A stretch of 64,000 bases of DNA, from NCBI GenBank assembly GCA_020852815.1, contig JADZAN010000047.1, positions 62,001 to 126,000 on the forward strand, in the 5' to 3' direction. Numbering within the stretch: position 1 is the first letter of the stretch; every line of letters begins with the position of its first letter. This DNA is from Gemmatimonadaceae bacterium. Lineage in GTDB: Bacteria > Gemmatimonadota > Gemmatimonadetes > Gemmatimonadales > Gemmatimonadaceae. The position numbers were made by a program, and so were the translations under genes. The notes under the pieces are model-generated. The model was not told the DNA's origin and did not search any database. It saw only the letters and a list, made by a program, of their open reading frames with translations. Positions 56,245-63,890 of this stretch are shown here, one piece after another.

Positions 56245-59200
56245 TCAGTGGAAGTCGTGGCTGCGGGCCCACGCCTCGCCCGCGTCGGCCTTGAGGGGGG
56301 TGAACTGCTCGCCGCGCAGGTTGACGACGTTGCTCTCGACCTGGAGCGTTCCGCGGACGAGGAGGAGTGGGGAGGTGGAGATCATCAACGCCTGGCGTTC
56401 GAAGCGCTTGGGGGTGACGACGACGTTGAGGATCCCGGTTTCGTCTTCCAGCGAGAGGAAGACGAAGCCCTTGGCGGTTCCTGGGCGCTGGCGGCAGATC
56501 ACGAGCCCGGCGTGGGCGACGCGTTCGCCGTCCCGTCCGTGTTGTTGCAGCTCGCGGGATGTGCGGACGCCGTTGGGGTGGAGGAGCTTTCGCAGGTGGC
56601 GCATCGGGTGGCCGTTGAGCGAGAGCCCGGTCAGGCGATAGTCGGCGTCGGTGGTCTCGAGGCGGGACATAGCGGGGAGTGGGGGGCGCGTGGGGCGCGG
56701 TCGCGATGGGGCGAGGGGGCCGGCGTCGCCGCGCAGCGCCTCGAGGACACGCCAGAGGGCGACGCGCCGGCGCTCAGCGGGCGGGACATCGGGGACCATG
56801 GTGTCGAAGGCACCGGCCTCGGCGAGGGCGCGAAGCGCGCGCTGGTCGAGCCCTGCGCGCTGGATGACGTCGGGGATGTCGTGGAAGGGGCCCTGCTCGA
56901 GGGCGCGTTCGAGCTTCTCGCGGGCGGCGGCGCCGAGTCCGTGCACGAGGCGGAGGCCGAGACGAACGGCGGGCGCCGCACTCCCATCTCTCGTCGCCTG
57001 CCTCCTGTCGCGCCGCTCGTCAGGCCTGTCGGCATGCCGGTCATCGAGTGTCCCGTCGGGTGTCCCGTCCTGCCTAACGCGAATCGCCACCTCCACGCCC
57101 ACCGGCACCACCACCTTCCCGTTCCGCAGTTCCAGCGCGTGGTCCCAGGCCGAGCGCGTGAGGTCGACCGGGCGCACCTCCACGCCATGCCGCTTCGCAT
57201 CCTCGATCAGCGTCCCCACCGAGTAGAAGCCCATCGGCTGTGCGTTGAGGATCGCCGCCGTGAACTCGGGGGCGTAGTAGTGGCGCAGGTACGCCGACGC
57301 GTAGACGATGAGCGCGAAGCTCGCCGAGTGCGACTCGGGGAAGCCGTAGTCGGCAAAGGCGTTGATCTGGTTGTAGATCCGGCGTGCGACATCCTCGGGG
57401 ATCCCGTTGCGCGCCATTCCGGTGATGAGCTTCTCGCAGATGGCCGCCATCCGTTCGCGCGAGCGCTTGTGCCCCATCGCCCGGCGCAGGATGTCGGCCT
57501 CTCCCGGCGTGAACCCCGCCGCGGCGATCGCCACCTGCATCCCCTGCTCCTGGAAGAGCGGGATGCCTAACGTGCGCTTGAGGATCGGCTCCACCGCGGG
57601 GTGCGGATAGGTCACCGGTTCCTCGCCCGCGCGCCGCCGCAGGTACGGGTGCACCATCTCCCCCTGGATCGGCCCCGGGCGGATGAGCGCGACCTCCACC
57701 ACGAGGTCATAGAAGCAGCGCGGCTTGAGGCGCGGGAGCGTGTTCATCTGCGCCCGGCTCTCCACCTGGAAGACGCCGATCGTGTCGGCCGCGCACAGGT
57801 CGTCGTACACCGCCTGGTCCGTCATGTCGAGCTGCCCGAGGTCGAGCGTGACCCCGCGGGCGGCGCGGATGTACTTGAGGCAGTCCTGCAGCACCGTCAG
57901 CATCCCCAGGCCTAACAAGTCGATCTTGACCAATCCCACCGGGTCGAGGTCGTCGCGCTCCCACTGGATCACCGTGCGGTTCGGCATCGACGCCGGCTCG
58001 ATCGGGACCACCGTGCGCAACGGTTCGGCGGTGAGGACGAAGCCGCCGACGTGGATGGAGCGGTGGCGCGGCGCCTGGTGCAGCCCCTCGACGATGTCGG
58101 GGAGGACGTGCACCCGGCGGTCGTTGGGATCGAGCCCGGCCTGCGCGAAGATGGTGGAGGCGAGCGGGGAGGCGGGGTCGGCGGCCGTGTCCCGGGAAGT
58201 GCCTAACGACCTCCCCTCCGCCTCCAGGCGATCCACCAACGACTGGTTGCGGGTGTTCTGCTGCAGCGTGACCTGCGCGTTGGCGTTGCCGAACGGTTCA
58301 TAGCCCTTCGAGTGGCGCGCCCCTCCGGGCCGGGCCGACGCCGCATCCAAGGGCGCCCCTCCATCCGCCTGGTCTCCAGCGTTGCCAGCGCCGCTGTCGT
58401 TCGTGCCGCTGTCGTTCGTGCCGCTGTCGCCGACGCGCGTCCGGCCGCCGGAATCCCATTCATGCTTCCGCCGCTTTGCCAACTCCGGGCGCCCGCTTCG
58501 CGCCGCTGCCTCTCGCGCCAGTCGATGCGCGTTCTCCCGCGCGTCCCCCCGCGCGTCCCCCCGCGCATTCCCCCGCGCGTCCTCTCCCGCGCTACGCTCC
58601 GGCGCACTCCCGTCTCCCCCCAGCCTTCGCTGGGGCAAGCTTTCCCGTCTCCCGTCCCGCTCTTCCCGCCCTTCGCCCCCCAGCCCGCGCCGGTGCGCCG
58701 CCTTCTCCTCCCGCATCCGCGTCGTCGCCTCCGTCCCCCGCACCATCCCCTGGCCCATGCGCTCCGCCAGCAGCCGTTCGGCACTCCACTCGTCGCGCTG
58801 CCTGCGCGGGTCGTCGGGAATCCCCGGGCGGTCGCTCTGCGGGTCGAGGTCGTACTCGCGCGCCAGCATGTCGGCCGGCGCCGCCCCTCCCCGCAACGCC
58901 TCCGCGGTCGCCTTCGCCGAAAACCGGTCGCTGAGGGCGCTGAGCACGTCGGCCTGCTGCACCGAGAACCCCAAAACACGCGCAGCATCACGCACCGCCG
59001 AGCGGCCGCGATAGGTGATCTGCTCGCAGACCATCGCCGCGTGCTCGCGCCCGTACCGTGCATAGACGTACTGCAGCACCTGTTCGCGGTCGCGGTGCGC
59101 GAAGTCGATGTCGATGTCCGGGGCCTCCTGGCGCTCGTCGCTCAGGAAACGCTCGAAGAGGAGTTCGAGCCGGATCGGGTCCACCGCGGTGATCCCGAGG

Positions 59201-60270
59201 CAGTAGCACACGGCGGAATTCGCCGCCGAGCCGCGCCCCTGGCACAGCACCCCCGTGCGATGGGCGAAACGGACGATGTCCCACACGATCAGGAAGTAGC
59301 CGGCGAGCCCCAGGCGCCGGATCGTGTCGAGTTCATGCGCCACCTGCGCCCGGTGCTTGTCGGTGCACTGCTCGCCCCAGCGTTCGCGGATTCCCTGCTC
59401 GACCAGTCGCGCGAGGTATTCATCGGCGCTCACCCCCGGCGGGAGCGGAAAGGTCGGGAGCGTGGGGCGCAGGTCCTCCAGCCGGAACGTGCATCGCTCG
59501 GCGATTGCCAGCGATGCGCGCAGCCCGGCGTCGTCGCCGCGCCAACGGCGTTGCAGCTGCTGGCGCCCCTTCAGGTACCACTCTCCGTTGGGGCGCAAGC
59601 GCTGGCCCATCGTGTCGAGCGTCCGCTCGTGGCGCAGCGCCGAGAGGACGTCGTGGACCACCCGCCCCGTGGGAAGGGCGTAGTGCACGTCGTTCGTCAC
59701 CACCCACGGGATCCCCAGCGACTTGGCGAGGGGGATCAGGTGGCGGACGAGGGCCCGTTCCTCGGGGAGGTGATGATCCCATACCTCGATGGCGAGGCGC
59801 CCCTCGAAGAGGTCGAGGAGTGTGGCGGCCGCCTCGCACGCCCCGTCCACATCGCCAGCTGCAATCCGCGAGGGGATCCACCCGCGCGGGCATCCGGTGA
59901 GGGCAAAGATCCCGTCGGTGTGGGCGGCGAGCGTGTCGAGCGAGACTCGCGGCTCCCCGCGCGGGTTGTCCATCCGCCCCCGCGTGATGAGCGAGGCGAT
60001 GTTGCCATACCCCGTGCGCGACTCGGCCAGGAGAACCAGGTGTGATGGGAGGCCGTCGATGTCGAGCGTGAGTTCGCAGCCGAGGATCCCGCCGATCCCC
60101 GCCTCACGTGCCGCCTGGGCAAAGCGGACCGCGCCGCCCAGGTCGTCGTGGTCGGTGAGGGCGAGCGCCGGCATGCCTAACGCCTTGGCCCGCGCGACCA
60201 GCGCCTCGGGTTCGGAGGCACCGTCGAGCAGCGAGAAGACGGAGTGGCAGTGCAGTTCGGTATACGGCAG
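56245..60270 (-). CDS. dnaE2: Error-prone DNA polymerase DnaE2 (C-family)
   Basis: Translesion polymerase of the ImuA-ImuB-DnaE2 mutasome. 1341 residues counted from the CTG at 60270. PHP domain begins ELHCHSVFSLLDGA. Catalytic aspartates are in PDIDIDF (about 463-469) and in LVKIDLLGLGM. An insertion of about 230 residues, at about 58,180-58,880, is rich in Arg/Gly/Asp and repeats (for example DSGTNDSGTND, ARGDARGDAR) and splits the usual region before VGGFVLTAEPL. A second short one lies in the C-terminal part. There is no ATG, GTG or TTG between the imuB stop and this N-terminus; alternatives are CTG 60348 (CTGA overlap with imuB) or TTG 60393 inside imuB. Confidence 0.93.
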   Translation of the reverse strand: MPYTELHCHSVFSLLDGASEPEALVARAKALGMPALALTDHDDLGGAVRFAQAAREAGIGGILGCELTLDIDGLPSHLVLLAESRTGYGNIASLITRGRMDNPRGEPRVSLDTLAAHTDGIFALTGCPRGWIPSRIAAGDVDGACEAAATLLDLFEGRLAIEVWDHHLPEERALVRHLIPLAKSLGIPWVVTNDVHYALPTGRVVHDVLSALRHERTLDTMGQRLRPNGEWYLKGRQQLQRRWRGDDAGLRASLAIAERCTFRLEDLRPTLPTFPLPPGVSADEYLARLVEQGIRERWGEQCTDKHRAQVAHELDTIRRLGLAGYFLIVWDIVRFAHRTGVLCQGRGSAANSAVCYCLGITAVDPIRLELLFERFLSDERQEAPDIDIDFAHRDREQVLQYVYARYGREHAAMVCEQITYRGRSAVRDAARVLGFSVQQADVLSALSDRFSAKATAEALRGGAAPADMLAREYDLDPQSDRPGIPDDPRRQRDEWSAERLLAERMGQGMVRGTEATTRMREEKAAHRRGLGGEGREERDGRRESLPQRRLGGDGSAPERSAGEDARGNARGDARGDARENAHRLAREAAARSGRPELAKRRKHEWDSGGRTRVGDSGTNDSGTNDSGAGNAGDQADGGAPLDAASARPGGARHSKGYEPFGNANAQVTLQQNTRNQSLVDRLEAEGRSLGTSRDTAADPASPLASTIFAQAGLDPNDRRVHVLPDIVEGLHQAPRHRSIHVGGFVLTAEPLRTVVPIEPASMPNRTVIQWERDDLDPVGLVKIDLLGLGMLTVLQDCLKYIRAARGVTLDLGQLDMTDQAVYDDLCAADTIGVFQVESRAQMNTLPRLKPRCFYDLVVEVALIRPGPIQGEMVHPYLRRRAGEEPVTYPHPAVEPILKRTLGIPLFQEQGMQVAIAAAGFTPGEADILRRAMGHKRSRERMAAICEKLITGMARNGIPEDVARRIYNQINAFADYGFPESHSASFALIVYASAYLRHYYAPEFTAAILNAQPMGFYSVGTLIEDAKRHGVEVRPVDLTRSAWDHALELRNGKVVVPVGVEVAIRVRQDGTPDGTLDDRHADRPDERRDRRQATRDGSAAPAVRLGLRLVHGLGAAAREKLERALEQGPFHDIPDVIQRAGLDQRALRALAEAGAFDTMVPDVPPAERRRVALWRVLEALRGDAGPLAPSRPRPTRPPLPAMSRLETTDADYRLTGLSLNGHPMRHLRKLLHPNGVRTSRELQQHGRDGERVAHAGLVICRQRPGTAKGFVFLSLEDETGILNVVVTPKRFERQALMISTSPLLLVRGTLQVESNVVNLRGEQFTPLKADAGEAWARSHDFH
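58390..58430. repeat. 15-bp tandem repeat in dnaE2
   Basis: Unit GCCGCTGTCGTTCGT at 58390 and 58405 and a partial copy at 58420; codes for the DSGTN tract on the minus strand. Confidence 0.85.
58535..58590. repeat. 12-bp tandem repeat in dnaE2
   Basis: Units of the type CCCGCGCGTCCC, about four copies, coding for the GNARGDARGDAREN tract on the minus strand. Confidence 0.8.
58603..58667 (-). repeat. Palindromic repeat element, copy A, inside dnaE2 coding sequence
   Basis: Contains the hairpin CCCCAGC-CTTC-GCTGGGG at 58618-58635, then GCAAGC and a pyrimidine-rich tail TTTCCCGTCTCCCG. On the minus strand the whole reads GGGAAGAGCGGGACGGGAGA... as in the coxG leader. Translated in frame as ESLPQRRLGGD. 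Confidence 0.8.
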
Positions 60271-60304
60271 AAGACGAGAAGACGAGAAGACGAGAAGACG
60301 AGAG
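60269..60304. repeat. 8-bp tandem repeat at the imuB-dnaE2 junction
   Basis: AGAAGACG, four exact copies at 60269-60300 and a partial one. It lies between the imuB stop and the dnaE2 conserved start. The period is not a multiple of three. Confidence 0.9.
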
Positions 60305-60305
60305 G

Positions 60306-60330
60306 CCTGCCCCAGCGAAGGCTGGGGACG
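60306..60330 (-). repeat. Palindromic repeat element, copy B, in the imuB-dnaE2 junction
   Basis: CCCCAGC-GAAG-GCTGGGG at 60310-60327, flanked by CCTGC. On the minus strand it is followed by the TCTTCTCG tract. Confidence 0.85.
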
Positions 60331-60344
60331 AGTCCTACGGGGGG

Positions 60345-62876
60345 TCAGTCGTACCAGCCGTGGATGAACCAGGCGTTGTCGGAGGCGGTGCAATCGCGGT
60401 AAAGGACGAGATGGCTGGTCCCCGTGGTGTCCTCGCAGCGCCAGTAGTCGCGGGCGTAGCCCGATTCCCACCAGTCGCCGGTGAGGCGTTCGGGGCCAAT
60501 GGCGCGGGCCACGGTGATCACCTGCTGGCGCCACCGGATGGCGCGCGGCGGGCTCGTCGCGCGGCCGTCGGCGGTGCGGACCTCGGCGCGTTCCGGCGTC
60601 TCCAGTTGACGCAGCGCTGGCGCGCGCAGGAGCGACGGGGGAAGCGCTCGCGCGGCCAGGCGTGGCATGGCGCCGGGGGCGCCTTCGCGCACGAGGGTGA
60701 GCGCCCGGGTGCCTAACGCTTCGCGCGCAGGGTCCGCGTCCCGTGCCGGTGGGCGCTCGGCCGCTGCGATGGCGTGTGCGGAGATTGCCGGGGACGACGA
60801 ACGCGCCAGCCCTCCTCGCCCGTCGCCCCCCCTCGCGCCGCTCCCGTCCCCCATCGGATCCTCCACCCGTTCCCATTCCCCGGCGCGCTCGGGCCGGTGC
60901 GTGTCGCGCAGCACCGGGCGCACGATGGCTCCCGTGCCTAACGTTGCACGCAGGCGGGCGAAGGCGGCATCGGCGGCGGCGGGGTCGCGCCAGGCCGGGT
61001 CGAGCAACTCGCCCTGGGCACCGTGCAGCGGCGCCGTGGCGGTGATGGCCACCGTTACCGCGCAGACCGGGGCATCGAGGCGCCACTCCTCCAGGAGTGC
61101 ACGGCATCGCTCGAGGAGCGGGACCACGCGGGCCAAGGGGCGCGGGAGGCGCACCTCGCGCGTGATCGTGTGGGCGCGGGTGGCGGTCGGGAGCGCCCCG
61201 CGTGCGTCGTCGAGGGCCAGGGTGATGGCCACCACTGCGGCCGAGCGCCCGTCATGCACCAGGTCCTGCACCAAACGATCGAGAGCAGCTCGCACGAGGA
61301 AGAGGATCGGTTCCACCGAGGGGACGCTGGGCGACAGCTCGGCGACGACGGCGCGCGGGGCGTCGAGGCGGGCGAGCACCGGGCGCCGGCGATCCTCGCC
61401 GCGCGCCAGGCGCCACGCCGCCACGCCTTCCTCGCCCCAGCGTCGTTCCACGTCCTCGACGGTGAGCGCGGCAAGGGCCCCCACGGTGCGCAGCCCAAGC
61501 GCCTGCAGCGTCTCGCGCAACTCTTCATCCATCGGGACCAGGCCGAGGGGGGCTGGGGCGAGGTAGGCAGCGCAACCATCGGGTGGAACGATGACGATTC
61601 CCTCGTCCATGGGTGCGTCCTCGGCGCTCGCGCGTCGCGGGCGCCGCGGGTTGTCGTGCGAGTTGTCGTGCGGGTTGTCGCGCGGGTTGTCGCGCGAACG
61701 CCTGGCTGGTGTCGTGGGGCTGGTGGGGGAGGCCCACGTGGCGGCGCGGGCGGCGACGCACGAGTCGGCGATCCCGACGCGTGCTCCTGGGTGCCAGCGG
61801 CGGGCGAGGGCGAGGAGGCGGCGGGCCAGCGCACGTTCGCCGCCTAACGCTTCGAGCCCACTGGCGCCGATCCACCAGGTGCCGGGGCTACCGGCGACCG
61901 GGGTCACTTGCGGGCTTGCCTGCACGAAGGCGGCCGTGGCCCGTGTCACGGCACGCGTGAGTGCGTCCTCGTCCCAATGGGCCACCCGGAGTGTCGCGCA
62001 GCGCGAGCGTGCTTCGGCGATCGTCATTCCGGCCCGGATGCGGGCGTCGCCGGCTGCTGCCGTGGCGGCGCGCACGCGCTGGCCATCGAGGAGGACGATG
62101 GGGAGGGCGTCCCAGTGGGGGGCGGGCGGCGTGGGGAGGGGCCCGCCAGGCGCACCAGTGCCGCCAGGCGCACCAGTGCCGCCAGGTGCACCAGTGCCGC
62201 CAGGTGCACCAGGCCCGCGCGGCGCATGAGGCCTGTGCGGCGCACCAAGCCTGGGCGACGCACTGAGGCCGTCAGATGCAAGCATCGTCGGTGCCCGGGC
62301 GGCGGGATTCGCGGTGGGGTTTGCCGCTGGCGTCGGTTGGGGCGTTGGCCAGGGGGCGTTGGTGTTGGTGTTGGCGTTGGCGTTGGCGTTGGGGATGGGC
62401 GTGTTGGGGATGGGCGTGTTGGGGATGGGGGGTGTCATCCTCCCACCCGTCGTATCCACGGCGGGGGGCGAGGAGGAACTCGTCGCGGGCGATGGCCGGC
62501 TCGGCGCATCGGCGCTTGTGCGCGAGGGTGGCACCAGTGGTGCTTGCGGCACCTGCGGCACCTGCGGCACCTGCGGCACCTGCGGCACCTGCGGTACCTG
62601 CGGCACCTGCGGCACCTGCGGTACCTGCGGCACCTGCGATACCCGCGGCACCTGCTGTTCTGGTGTTGTCTGGTGTGTTGGGAGGCGTGGCGGGGTGGCG
62701 GTGCGTCGCGGGATCACCACGTCCTCCACTCCCATGGGGAGGAGGAGTTGTTCGTCGGACCCCGGGGGCGTCAGGAGCGGTCCGTTCCCCGCGGCGATTG
62801 CGTGTTGCCACGCCGCGCCGATCGGGAACCTGGGGATGCGCACACATGCGACGCGCCACTTCGATTGCACAGCCAA
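60345..62876 (-). CDS. imuB: ImuB, Y-family polymerase-like mutasome hub
   Basis: 843 residues from ATG 62876. ImuB is inactive as a polymerase and links ImuA, DnaE2 and the beta clamp. N-terminus VACVRIPRFPIGAAWQ, then an insertion of about 220 residues (at about 62,110-62,780) made of QVPQVPQ, IPNTPIPN and GAPGGTGAPGG repeats. The core resumes with LPIVLLDGQRVRAATAAAGD and MTIAEARSRCATLRVAHWDE, followed by ALGLRTVGALAALTVEDVER and the C-terminal region with LPPSLLRAPALRQLETPERA and TGDWWESGYARDYWRC. Another repeat tract (RDNPRDNPHDNSHDNPR) lies near 61,650. The start is set by the conserved N-terminus and overlaps imuA by 605 bp. Confidence 0.92.
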   Translation of the reverse strand: MAVQSKWRVACVRIPRFPIGAAWQHAIAAGNGPLLTPPGSDEQLLLPMGVEDVVIPRRTATPPRLPTHQTTPEQQVPRVSQVPQVPQVPQVPQVPQVPQVPQVPQVPQVPQAPLVPPSRTSADAPSRPSPATSSSSPPAVDTTGGRMTPPIPNTPIPNTPIPNANANANTNTNAPWPTPQPTPAANPTANPAARAPTMLASDGLSASPRLGAPHRPHAPRGPGAPGGTGAPGGTGAPGGTGAPGGPLPTPPAPHWDALPIVLLDGQRVRAATAAAGDARIRAGMTIAEARSRCATLRVAHWDEDALTRAVTRATAAFVQASPQVTPVAGSPGTWWIGASGLEALGGERALARRLLALARRWHPGARVGIADSCVAARAATWASPTSPTTPARRSRDNPRDNPHDNSHDNPRRPRRASAEDAPMDEGIVIVPPDGCAAYLAPAPLGLVPMDEELRETLQALGLRTVGALAALTVEDVERRWGEEGVAAWRLARGEDRRRPVLARLDAPRAVVAELSPSVPSVEPILFLVRAALDRLVQDLVHDGRSAAVVAITLALDDARGALPTATRAHTITREVRLPRPLARVVPLLERCRALLEEWRLDAPVCAVTVAITATAPLHGAQGELLDPAWRDPAAADAAFARLRATLGTGAIVRPVLRDTHRPERAGEWERVEDPMGDGSGARGGDGRGGLARSSSPAISAHAIAAAERPPARDADPAREALGTRALTLVREGAPGAMPRLAARALPPSLLRAPALRQLETPERAEVRTADGRATSPPRAIRWRQQVITVARAIGPERLTGDWWESGYARDYWRCEDTTGTSHLVLYRDCTASDNAWFIHGWYD
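61648..61700. repeat. 12-bp tandem repeat in imuB
   Basis: Unit of type GGGTTGTCGTGC, four to five copies, coding for the (RDNP/HDNS) tract on the minus strand. Confidence 0.85.
62145..62213. repeat. 18-bp tandem repeat in imuB
   Basis: GCCAGGCGCACCAGTGCC at 62145, 62163, 62181 and a partial copy at 62199; codes for GAPGGT on the minus strand. Confidence 0.9.
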
Positions 62877-63825
62877 CCTCCACGAGATGATGCGTTCCGC
62901 CCTTCTCGACCGTCACCTGCAACACGAGCGGGGTACGAAGCGCCCCGCTTTCGCCTGGGACATGGTGCGCGCCGTGGTCATCGAGGACTGGGCGTGCGGG
63001 CTCCGCCGTTCGTCCTGTTCGCGTGCGCGAGGGTTCTTGCGAAGGTTCTTGCGAGGGTGCTCGGGATGGCTCTCGCGAGGGAGGGCGCGTTGGTTCCCGC
63101 CATGGCGGTCGTCCCGGCGGGATGGGTGATCCATCGCGCGTGCGGTGGGCGTGCACGCGCAGGCGGACGGCGCCTCCAACGGCAGCGCGTCCACTCGGAG
63201 CGCGCCCGCCTGCCGCGCGCCCACCCGCCGCGCGCCCACCCGCAGCGTGCCCACCCGCCGCGCGCCCGTCCGCAACGCCGCGGTCGGAGGCGTGGCCGCC
63301 TTCGAGGGGCTCCTCGTCGCGCAGCATCACGAAGGCGGCATTGCCTTCGCGCGCCAGGCGGGTGAGGCGCACCGCGACGCCGTGCGAAAGCGAACCGCTT
63401 CCATCGAGGATCACCAACCCGAAGGCCCCGCTGCGCAGGAGGACATCGGCGCACCAGGGGCCGTGCGCCACCGCGGAGGCCGGCGTGGTGCGGCTGGCCA
63501 GCGGCGGGCGCACGATCCAGAGGCGTTCCGTCGTCGCCAGGGCGGCCCAGTCGGCCGGGGCCAGGGTGCGTGCGGCGTCCACGTATGCAACCCATCGTTT
63601 GTCCGCGAGCGCCTGGGCGACGATCTCGCGCACCAGCGTCGTCTTGCCGCTCCCGCGCCTCCCCACGATCTCCGTCAACCGCCCCAGGGGGAGCCCGCCG
63701 TCCGACAGCACGGCATCGAGCGCCGCGATTCCCGTCGGCATCCCGGTGGGAATCCCGTTCCCGGGGCGCGGGGGTGGGGCGATGACGGCCGCGAGTTGCT
63801 GGCGGAGGGTGGCGAGAGACGTCAT
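62272..63825 (-). CDS. imuA: ImuA, RecA-like mutasome protein with repetitive C-terminal extension
   Basis: 517 residues from ATG 63825. RecA-fold core: GIAALDAVLSDGGLPLGRLT, Walker A GRRGSGKTT, LVILDGSGSLSHG, and a repetitive insertion of AAGGR/HAAGGR (about 190-225) plus Ser/Pro/Glu repeats (REPSRAPSQEPSQEPSRTR). The conserved part ends near VTVEKGGTHHLVEVGC; the frame then stays open for another 605 bp inside imuB, giving about 200 more residues of Ala/Gly and Pro/His/Gln repeats. ImuA binds ImuB and tunes SOS mutagenesis. The expected length for the family is well under 300. Confidence 0.88.
   Translation of the reverse strand: MTSLATLRQQLAAVIAPPPRPGNGIPTGMPTGIAALDAVLSDGGLPLGRLTEIVGRRGSGKTTLVREIVAQALADKRWVAYVDAARTLAPADWAALATTERLWIVRPPLASRTTPASAVAHGPWCADVLLRSGAFGLVILDGSGSLSHGVAVRLTRLAREGNAAFVMLRDEEPLEGGHASDRGVADGRAAGGHAAGGRAAGGRAAGGRAPSGRAAVGGAVRLRVHAHRTRDGSPIPPGRPPWREPTRPPSREPSRAPSQEPSQEPSRTRTGRTAEPARPVLDDHGAHHVPGESGALRTPLVLQVTVEKGGTHHLVEVGCAIEVARRMCAHPQVPDRRGVATRNRRGERTAPDAPGVRRTTPPPHGSGGRGDPATHRHPATPPNTPDNTRTAGAAGIAGAAGTAGAAGAAGTAGAAGAAGAAGAAGAASTTGATLAHKRRCAEPAIARDEFLLAPRRGYDGWEDDTPHPQHAHPQHAHPQRQRQRQHQHQRPLANAPTDASGKPHRESRRPGTDDACI
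62358..62432. repeat. 6-bp and 15-bp tandem repeats in the imuA/imuB overlap
   Basis: GTTGGC/GTTGGT hexamers, about six, then GGGGATGGGCGTGTT-type units, about three. On the minus strand in the imuB frame they give the (NA)n/(NT)n and IPNTP tracts; in the imuA frame HPQHAHPQHAHPQR. Confidence 0.85.
62543..62655. repeat. 9-bp tandem repeat in the imuA/imuB overlap
   Basis: GGCACCTGC unit, about twelve copies. On the minus strand in the imuB frame it codes QVPQVPQ, in the imuA frame AGAAGAAG. Confidence 0.9.
63010..63100. repeat. 12-bp-type tandem repeat in imuA
   Basis: Units around GGTTCTTGCGAG, diverged, coding for the REPSRAPSQEPSQEPS tract. Confidence 0.65.
63198..63275. repeat. 15-bp tandem repeat in imuA
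   Basis: CGCGCGCCCACCCGC-type unit, four to five copies; codes for the (GRAAG)n tract on the minus strand. Confidence 0.85.
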
Positions 63826-63835
63826 GGACGAGAAG

Positions 63836-63860
63836 CCTGCTCCAGCGAAGGCTGGGGATG
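63836..63860 (-). repeat. Palindromic repeat element, copy C, upstream of imuA
   Basis: CTCCAGC-GAAG-GCTGGGG at 63840-63857, one mismatch in the stem; ten bases or so ahead of the imuA ATG on the coding strand. Confidence 0.8.
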
Positions 63861-63864
63861 AAAA

Positions 63865-63890
63865 GCCTGCCCCAGCGAGGGCCGGGGACG
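63865..63890 (-). repeat. Palindromic repeat element, copy D, upstream of imuA
   Basis: CCCCAGC-GAGG-GCCGGGG at 63870-63887, one A-C mismatch; same orientation as copies B and C, and 30 bp from copy C. Confidence 0.75.

Follow-up and report, generated by a model that had tools for sequence, protein, structure and literature searches.

A hairpin repeat family largely nested in gene-edge arrays of a Gemmatimonadaceae genome, with four copies in the imuA-imuB-dnaE2 operon

The imuA-imuB-dnaE2 operon of a Gemmatimonadaceae bacterium contains several copies of a short palindrome, which raises the question of whether this repeat is a signal peculiar to the operon, a mobile element or a device acting at translation starts. 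We analyzed the 64,000-nt stretch that carries the operon (the window), its source genome (G000, 5.38 Mb in 47 contigs) and the two genus mates of this genome (G001 and G002). The three genes lie on the minus strand in the order imuA, imuB, dnaE2. The error-prone DNA polymerase gene dnaE2 (56245..60270) matches NF004225 with 1257 bits against a cut-off of 939, and its nearest named relatives are from Gemmatimonadaceae and Gemmatimonadetes MAGs. The product of imuB (60345..62876), named from its place in the operon, has an IMS domain (PF00817) scoring over the cut-off. The imuA open frame (62272..63825) matches NF033429 with 54.7 bits, below the cut-off of 150; its last ~600 bases overlap the imuB frame, and this overlapping part may not be real protein. 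Low-complexity tandem repeats at 62120-62660 encode VPQ repeats in the ImuB frame and collagen-like repeats in the overlapping ImuA frame.

A first-pass annotation had reported four copies of a 24-bp unit in this operon. All four are present, but the unit, GCYTGCYCCAGCGAAGGCTGGGG, has 23 letters, and 60310, 63840 and 63870, given as starts of copies, are the first bases of its 18-bp core. The unit has four matches in the window, against 0.01 expected from shuffles, with 0, 0, 0 and 2 mismatches for the copies beginning at 58618, 60305, 63835 and 63865. Copy 1 (58618..58640, minus strand), surrounded by heptamer-like (GACGGGR) flanks (58607..58660), is translated in frame in a linker of dnaE2. 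Copy 2 (60305..60327, plus strand) lies between the imuB stop (60345) and the earliest certain dnaE2 codons, and adjoins an array of four octamers beside these codons (60273..60304, plus strand) that reads (CTCGTCTT)n on the coding strand. Copies 3 and 4 (63835..63857 and 63865..63887, plus strand) are 30 bp apart and stand shortly before the imuA ATG, whose first base is 63825, with copy 3 at 9 nt upstream of this start codon; a single remaining octamer unit, GACGAGAA, is found beside the ATG (63827..63834, plus strand). The annotation had thus correctly placed one copy inside dnaE2, one at the imuB-dnaE2 junction and two ahead of imuA, and the pyrimidine-rich repeats that it saw next to them are the octamers, of which imuA keeps one unit only. 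From the imuB stop to the sequence PYTELHCHS (60268-60345), the dnaE2 frame of the source genome contains no ATG, GTG or TTG, and CTG is a possible start codon.

The 18-bp core, CCCCAGCGAAGGCTGGGG, occurs 188 times in the source genome at up to two mismatches (88 forward, 100 reverse), against one match for the reversed control pattern. A chance origin is rejected by these counts and by that in the window, and so is an operon-specific signal, as the four copies are members of a genome-wide family. Neither refuting outcome named in the annotation, confinement to this operon or a chance number of copies, is seen, and a dispersed REP-type hairpin family is supported. The three loci of the operon, within 5.3 kb, form a mild cluster (P ~0.0002 for one window, assuming 113 loci genome-wide); as 113 counts the hairpin or array clusters of the sampled stretches only, the true genome total is larger and P higher. 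Among the genomes searched, the core is private to the source genome. At up to two mismatches, none of 118 relatives had more than two core matches, about as many as with the control pattern; at one mismatch, two of 297 other genomes of the phylum had one match each, against 146 in the source genome. The search in sister genomes that the annotation had proposed thus gave nothing above this stray level: G001 (74% complete) has no core match at up to two mismatches, and G002 has one, with two mismatches. A DnaE2 fragment is 94% identical between the source genome and the sister with one stray core match. Carriage of the composite by phage or plasmid is unsupported: no viral contig contains the 27-mer, and no plasmid matched by BLAST, where the low-complexity filter may have hidden the repeat query.

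To describe the family, we used a sample of 152 cores at up to three mismatches, in 561,579 bases around listed copies and in the window, which covers part of the family only. Ninety-one of these are exact. The fold of the core confirms the 7-bp stem (CCCCAGC) and 4-nt loop described in the annotation; the loop is GAAG in 107 and GAAA in 35 of the 152 copies, and the flanking G and A of type A, described below, are unpaired. As RNA, the 18-mer folds with -14.3 kcal/mol, and the CGAAGG loop is unusually stable. Four types are distinguishable by their flanks. In type A, octamers and a CCTG linker precede the core and octamers follow it. Type B, to which copy 1 belongs, consists of heptamers (GACGGGR), AAGCTTG, the core and GG. 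Type C forms 28-29 bp tandem arrays, as at C10:2754 and C24:5521, in which most copies have the loop GAAA and end in a TCCA-like tail. A second series, type D (TCCCAGCGAAAGCTGGGA, tailed by CCA), has hairpins spaced 118-462 bp apart among (CACGGAGG)-like repeats in both orientations (contig coordinates C22:27188-28068, C24:280185-280822, C19:323945-324424 and C35:535-670).

Octamer-like flanks are found on both sides of 71 of the 152 copies and on one side of 20, hence on at least one side of 91; a further 24 lack octamers but carry a type B flank on one side or both, and the flanks of the other 37 follow neither the rule for type A nor that for type B. The linker CCTG is present in 57 of the 71 copies flanked on both sides, and the upstream 5-mers GCCTG and GCTTG account for 73 and 21 of the 152 copies. 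In the sampled stretches, neighbors less than 150 bp apart always share their orientation (51/51), and 23 of these pairs are spaced by 30 bp, the commonest distance. This period results from one octamer plus the 22-bp piece added between octamer units. Direct 22-bp tandems were encountered twice (C2:152531 and C15:86922).

The arrays themselves extend beyond the hairpin. The octamer array (GACGAGAR)n gives 389, 415 and 281 overlapping matches in the three genus members and none in 38 other relatives searched. Heptamer arrays give 207, 46 and 156 matches in the same three genomes, and 23 and 26 in two other genera against 9 and 7 for controls. Judging from their presence in all three genus members, the arrays are older than the hairpin.

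We then related the arrays to gene edges, with gene positions from a simple home-made six-frame model and stretches mostly chosen for containing repeats. Of 139 arrays, we set aside 14 that lay inside predicted genes; 120 had called genes on either side. For 84 arrays a single gene edge falls within 35 nt, and 81 of these arrays lead away from the gene concerned when read on the GA-rich strand (56/58 in the source genome, 21/21 in G002 and 4/5 in G001). A gene edge lies within 35 nt of the tail side of 98/122 arrays (60 stops, 38 starts) and of the head side of 19/123 (15 stops, 4 starts), so that GA repeats mostly trail stops and CT repeats lead starts. In a test of the nearest side, the rule held for 64/77 arrays of the source genome, for only 25/36 in G002 (p 0.03) and for 4/7 in G001 (p 1). 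Extra stretches chosen away from listed octamer sites held only two octamer arrays; there, all five intergenic heptamer arrays had a gene no more than 16 nt from their tail, three of them having one within 40 nt of the head as well, and two (CACGGAGR) arrays followed no polarity rule. Stop codons before arrays are TAG in 42 of 60 cases, against 439 of 1247 other genes (Fisher 1.3e-7). Some arrays extend up to the ATG, and by our own rule a Shine-Dalgarno-like site is missing from all 36 array-led genes, whose arrays fill that space, and present in 290 of 1197 other genes.

Since the arrays stand at gene edges, the hairpins lie shortly after a stop codon or shortly before a start codon. The annotation had situated the repeat at translation starts. 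This applies to 13 of 73 intergenic class A hairpin runs, a grouping that also includes most type B copies, which begin within 40 nt upstream of a start; 38 of the 73 begin within 40 nt after a stop codon. Eleven of 119 runs of hairpins or arrays are inside predicted genes.

These positions could reflect selection, the hairpin and arrays serving as RNA signals at gene ends or in leaders and being kept where useful, imuA and dnaE2 included. The polarity of single-edge arrays and the excess of TAG stops would suit such a role, as would the 52-nt composite, which folds better than shuffles (z -3.6), and the persistence of an array at the dnaE2 start in three of three species. At imuA, four units in G002 correspond to one unit plus hairpins in the source genome. 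We nevertheless consider a selected regulatory element unlikely. The hairpins are missing from close sisters and are thus not needed there, and array length and presence differ between orthologous gaps. Moreover, with so few other genes showing a Shine-Dalgarno-like site, losing it at arrays may cost little, and arrays before starts may simply be tolerated. A more elaborate version, which we regard as very improbable, would make the arrays a gene-punctuation system of one Gemmatimonadaceae genus and the hairpin a species-level modifier with imuA and dnaE2 among its targets. As start leaders (CUCGUCUUC)n are the exact complement of stop trailers (GAAGACGAG)n, each trailer could then form pairs, in cis or in trans, with every leader.

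The array families in which most hairpins lie are common to the source genome, with its 188 hairpins, and to a sister with one stray match, which permits a site-by-site comparison of occupied and unoccupied positions. Twenty-four of 101 hairpin clusters matched sister DNA on both sides. We classed 15 and left nine unclassed for an incomplete interval, another repeat type or doubtful orthology (q0, q3, q25, q34, q51, q55, q56, q65 and q96). At six loci (q18, q59, q62, q92, q93 and q94), the matching gene edge of a sister carries an array without hairpin, and at q88 a bare array occupies the corresponding gap. The sister has another repeat at q23, q52 and q61, and its edge is free of arrays at q57, q60, q4 (left) and q58 (left); q60 looks like a joint insertion of array and hairpin, of about 155 bp. 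In the operon, the imuB-dnaE2 junction has four octamers and a hairpin in the source genome, three octamers in G002 and seven in G001, the latter two without hairpin. As for the start of dnaE2 in the sisters, TTG is offered in G002; in G001 no ATG, GTG or TTG directly follows the array, CTG is again possible, and an upstream GTG would translate the array. At imuA (q93), the four octamers of G002 are without hairpin, and the source genome has two hairpins. In the dnaE2 linker (q91), copy 1 is missing from the corresponding interval of both sisters; it lies within a ~375-nt stretch that G002 is without and where G001 has ~100 nt. Other Gemmatimonadota (L032, L036 and L042) have, by eye, 7-8 bp repeats of other kinds shortly before dnaE2, namely ACCACCTG, GACGGCR and CCTCTGTG.

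The changing number of units at dnaE2 and the coming and going of arrays between orthologous gaps would also be expected of neutral slippage products at gene edges, with the hairpin a passenger without function. This explanation appears quite improbable to us, as slippage alone neither moves a near-identical 22-bp hairpin to some hundred places nor yields the polarity rule. We tentatively favor another scenario, to which we give somewhat less than an even chance: a CGTC-type hairpin would have entered an older octamer array, and the composite would then have spread through the array family rather than by means of a dedicated RAYT. In detail, a module of 22 bp, CCTGCCCCAGCGAAGGCTGGGG, containing a hairpin with the CGTC-1 core may have been placed between octamer units (GACGAGAAG^ACGAGAAG), generating 30-bp composite units. 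The fixed phase and linker suggest one founder per type, spread as a composite, and type B would go back to a separate founder in (GACGGGA)n heptamer arrays. The bare arrays of the sisters, the common orientation and 30-bp spacing of close neighbors, the two 22-bp tandems, the identity of the core with that of CGTC-tagged copies in viral contigs and the CCTC of type C also speak for this scenario. Spreading would have occurred most likely by recombination or gene conversion between near-identical arrays together with slippage within arrays, the hundreds of near-identical array units being probable natural substrates for recombination. At its new sites, such a small and stable hairpin may affect mRNA ends or initiation. 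We saw no gene conversion tract, and the 37 of 152 copies outside the flank rules count against spread through arrays. So do the loci q4 left, q57, q58 left and q60, where, without a sister array, array and hairpin may have arrived together, like an insertion, and the three loci at which the sister has another repeat.

Joint insertions of this kind, which q4 and q60 resemble, would also be produced by a transposase acting in trans on a non-autonomous element with array DNA as preferred target. The source genome encodes one Y1 transposase, on contig C9 (locus L031:1250-2240), which is TIRYT-like and scores 77.8 against the cut-off of 80 of NF047646 (REP-associated tyrosine transposase). Both this gene and the hairpins are present in the source genome; the gene was not detected in G002 or in the 74%-complete G001, a further point against spread through arrays. 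Its detection in the source genome alone within the genus, together with the loci lacking a sister array, speaks for transposition in trans. The locus itself argues otherwise. The gene is flanked by its own palindromic repeats (GGGGTCAG, GGGGTCAGAGTCA), unrelated to the hairpin; the GGGGTCAG repeats fit the GGGGWSAS motif given for TIRYT genes in the main text of Di Nocera et al. (2013; PMC3733652). Within the 3.3 kb of this locus, nothing matches the inner 14 bp of the core at up to three mismatches, and Y1 genes are carried by 34 of 98 relatives without the hairpin family (35 of 99 genomes counting the source genome). On these grounds we rejected a RAYT-linked REP; the annotation had proposed to look for a RAYT-type transposase, and a RAYT-driven mobile element is unsupported. 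Mobilization in trans by the Y1 enzyme is rather unlikely in our view, all the more as CGTC REPs are described in the main text of the same survey as apparently having no dedicated transposase (PMC3733652).

A separate dispersed motif touches the same genome. The non-palindromic octamer GCCTAACG is highly repeated in the source genome, with 1965 copies compared with 227 of the reversed control. Nine further Gemmatimonadaceae genera have genomes with 709 to 4469 copies, and most of the other 60 genomes have fewer than ~60, below their own controls. It looks like a putative uptake or Chi-like signal. The heptamer CCTAACG lies in the window at, for example, 60176, 60712, 60937, 61843 and 63898. 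Within genes of the source genome it is read mostly in the sense nCG-TTA-GGn (153 of 223 phased sites), a reading that forces TTA codons on a genome of 70% GC.

The hairpin family provides a fresh way to ask how orphan hairpin repeats spread, as the mobilization of the CGTC class was left open in the abstract of the 2013 survey (PMC3733652). The polarity of arrays at gene edges is a second and separately testable matter. In all three species of the genus examined, an octamer array adjoins the first codons of dnaE2, which encodes an error-prone polymerase. In the literature searched, outside which lie most subscription journals, we found neither this polarity nor such repeats in Gemmatimonadota. 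The string "Gemmatimon" has no occurrence in the main text of the 2013 survey (PMC3733652) and no match in the accessible text of the 2025 RepRanger paper (PMC12306157).

The annotation knew of no such family for this group, but published REPs with the CGTC tag, those of family CGTC-1 (Di Nocera et al. 2013; PMC3733652, main text), have this core. Exact 18-bp cores in viral contigs have CGTC one base upstream at 18 of 20 places (18 contigs), some with near-identical flanks, and the core hairpin of the source genome is identical to these CGTC-flanked copies. The two also share a 4-nt loop and a high copy number. No Y1 transposase gene is linked to the hairpin in the source genome. Copy 1 is a further likeness, DnaE2 being among the REP-tagged proteins and REPs inside repair genes, including DnaE2 genes, being already reported (PMC3733652, main text). 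Types A and B differ from CGTC-1 in having CCTG or CTTG as main tags, the 5' tags CGTC, TGTC and CCTC not being found there. In type A, a CGTC that overlaps the stem can be read on the other strand, and seven type C copies have CCTCT upstream, that is, CCTC, an allowed variant of the CGTC tag, one base upstream. CGTC-1 has an unpaired tail fitting CCA; in the source genome, TCCA or CCCA follows many type C and D copies but not types A and B. The stem has 7 bp, compared with 8 bp with outer A-T pairs in CGTC-1, and the hairpins are nested in octamer arrays as head-to-tail 30-bp tandems, whereas head-to-head dimers prevail in CGTC-1, as far as the main text of the survey describes it (PMC3733652). 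The rickettsial palindromic elements RPE-4 and RPE-6, equated there with CGTC repeats (PMC3733652, main text), are similarly palindromic and can form translated, in-frame parts of genes, but runs inside predicted genes are few in the source genome. GTAG REPs and REPINs are likewise short dispersed hairpins near gene ends; save for one downstream AGTAG, GTAG is absent from the 20 commonest upstream and downstream 5-mers of our family, and the one Y1 transposase gene of the source genome is not flanked by the hairpin repeat. The arrays recall STRRs, heptanucleotide arrays dispersed between genes of heterocystous cyanobacteria. The likeness is one of short 7-8 bp tandem arrays scattered between genes and implies no sequence relation, and the polarity at gene edges and the inserted hairpin distinguish the arrays of the source genome from STRRs.
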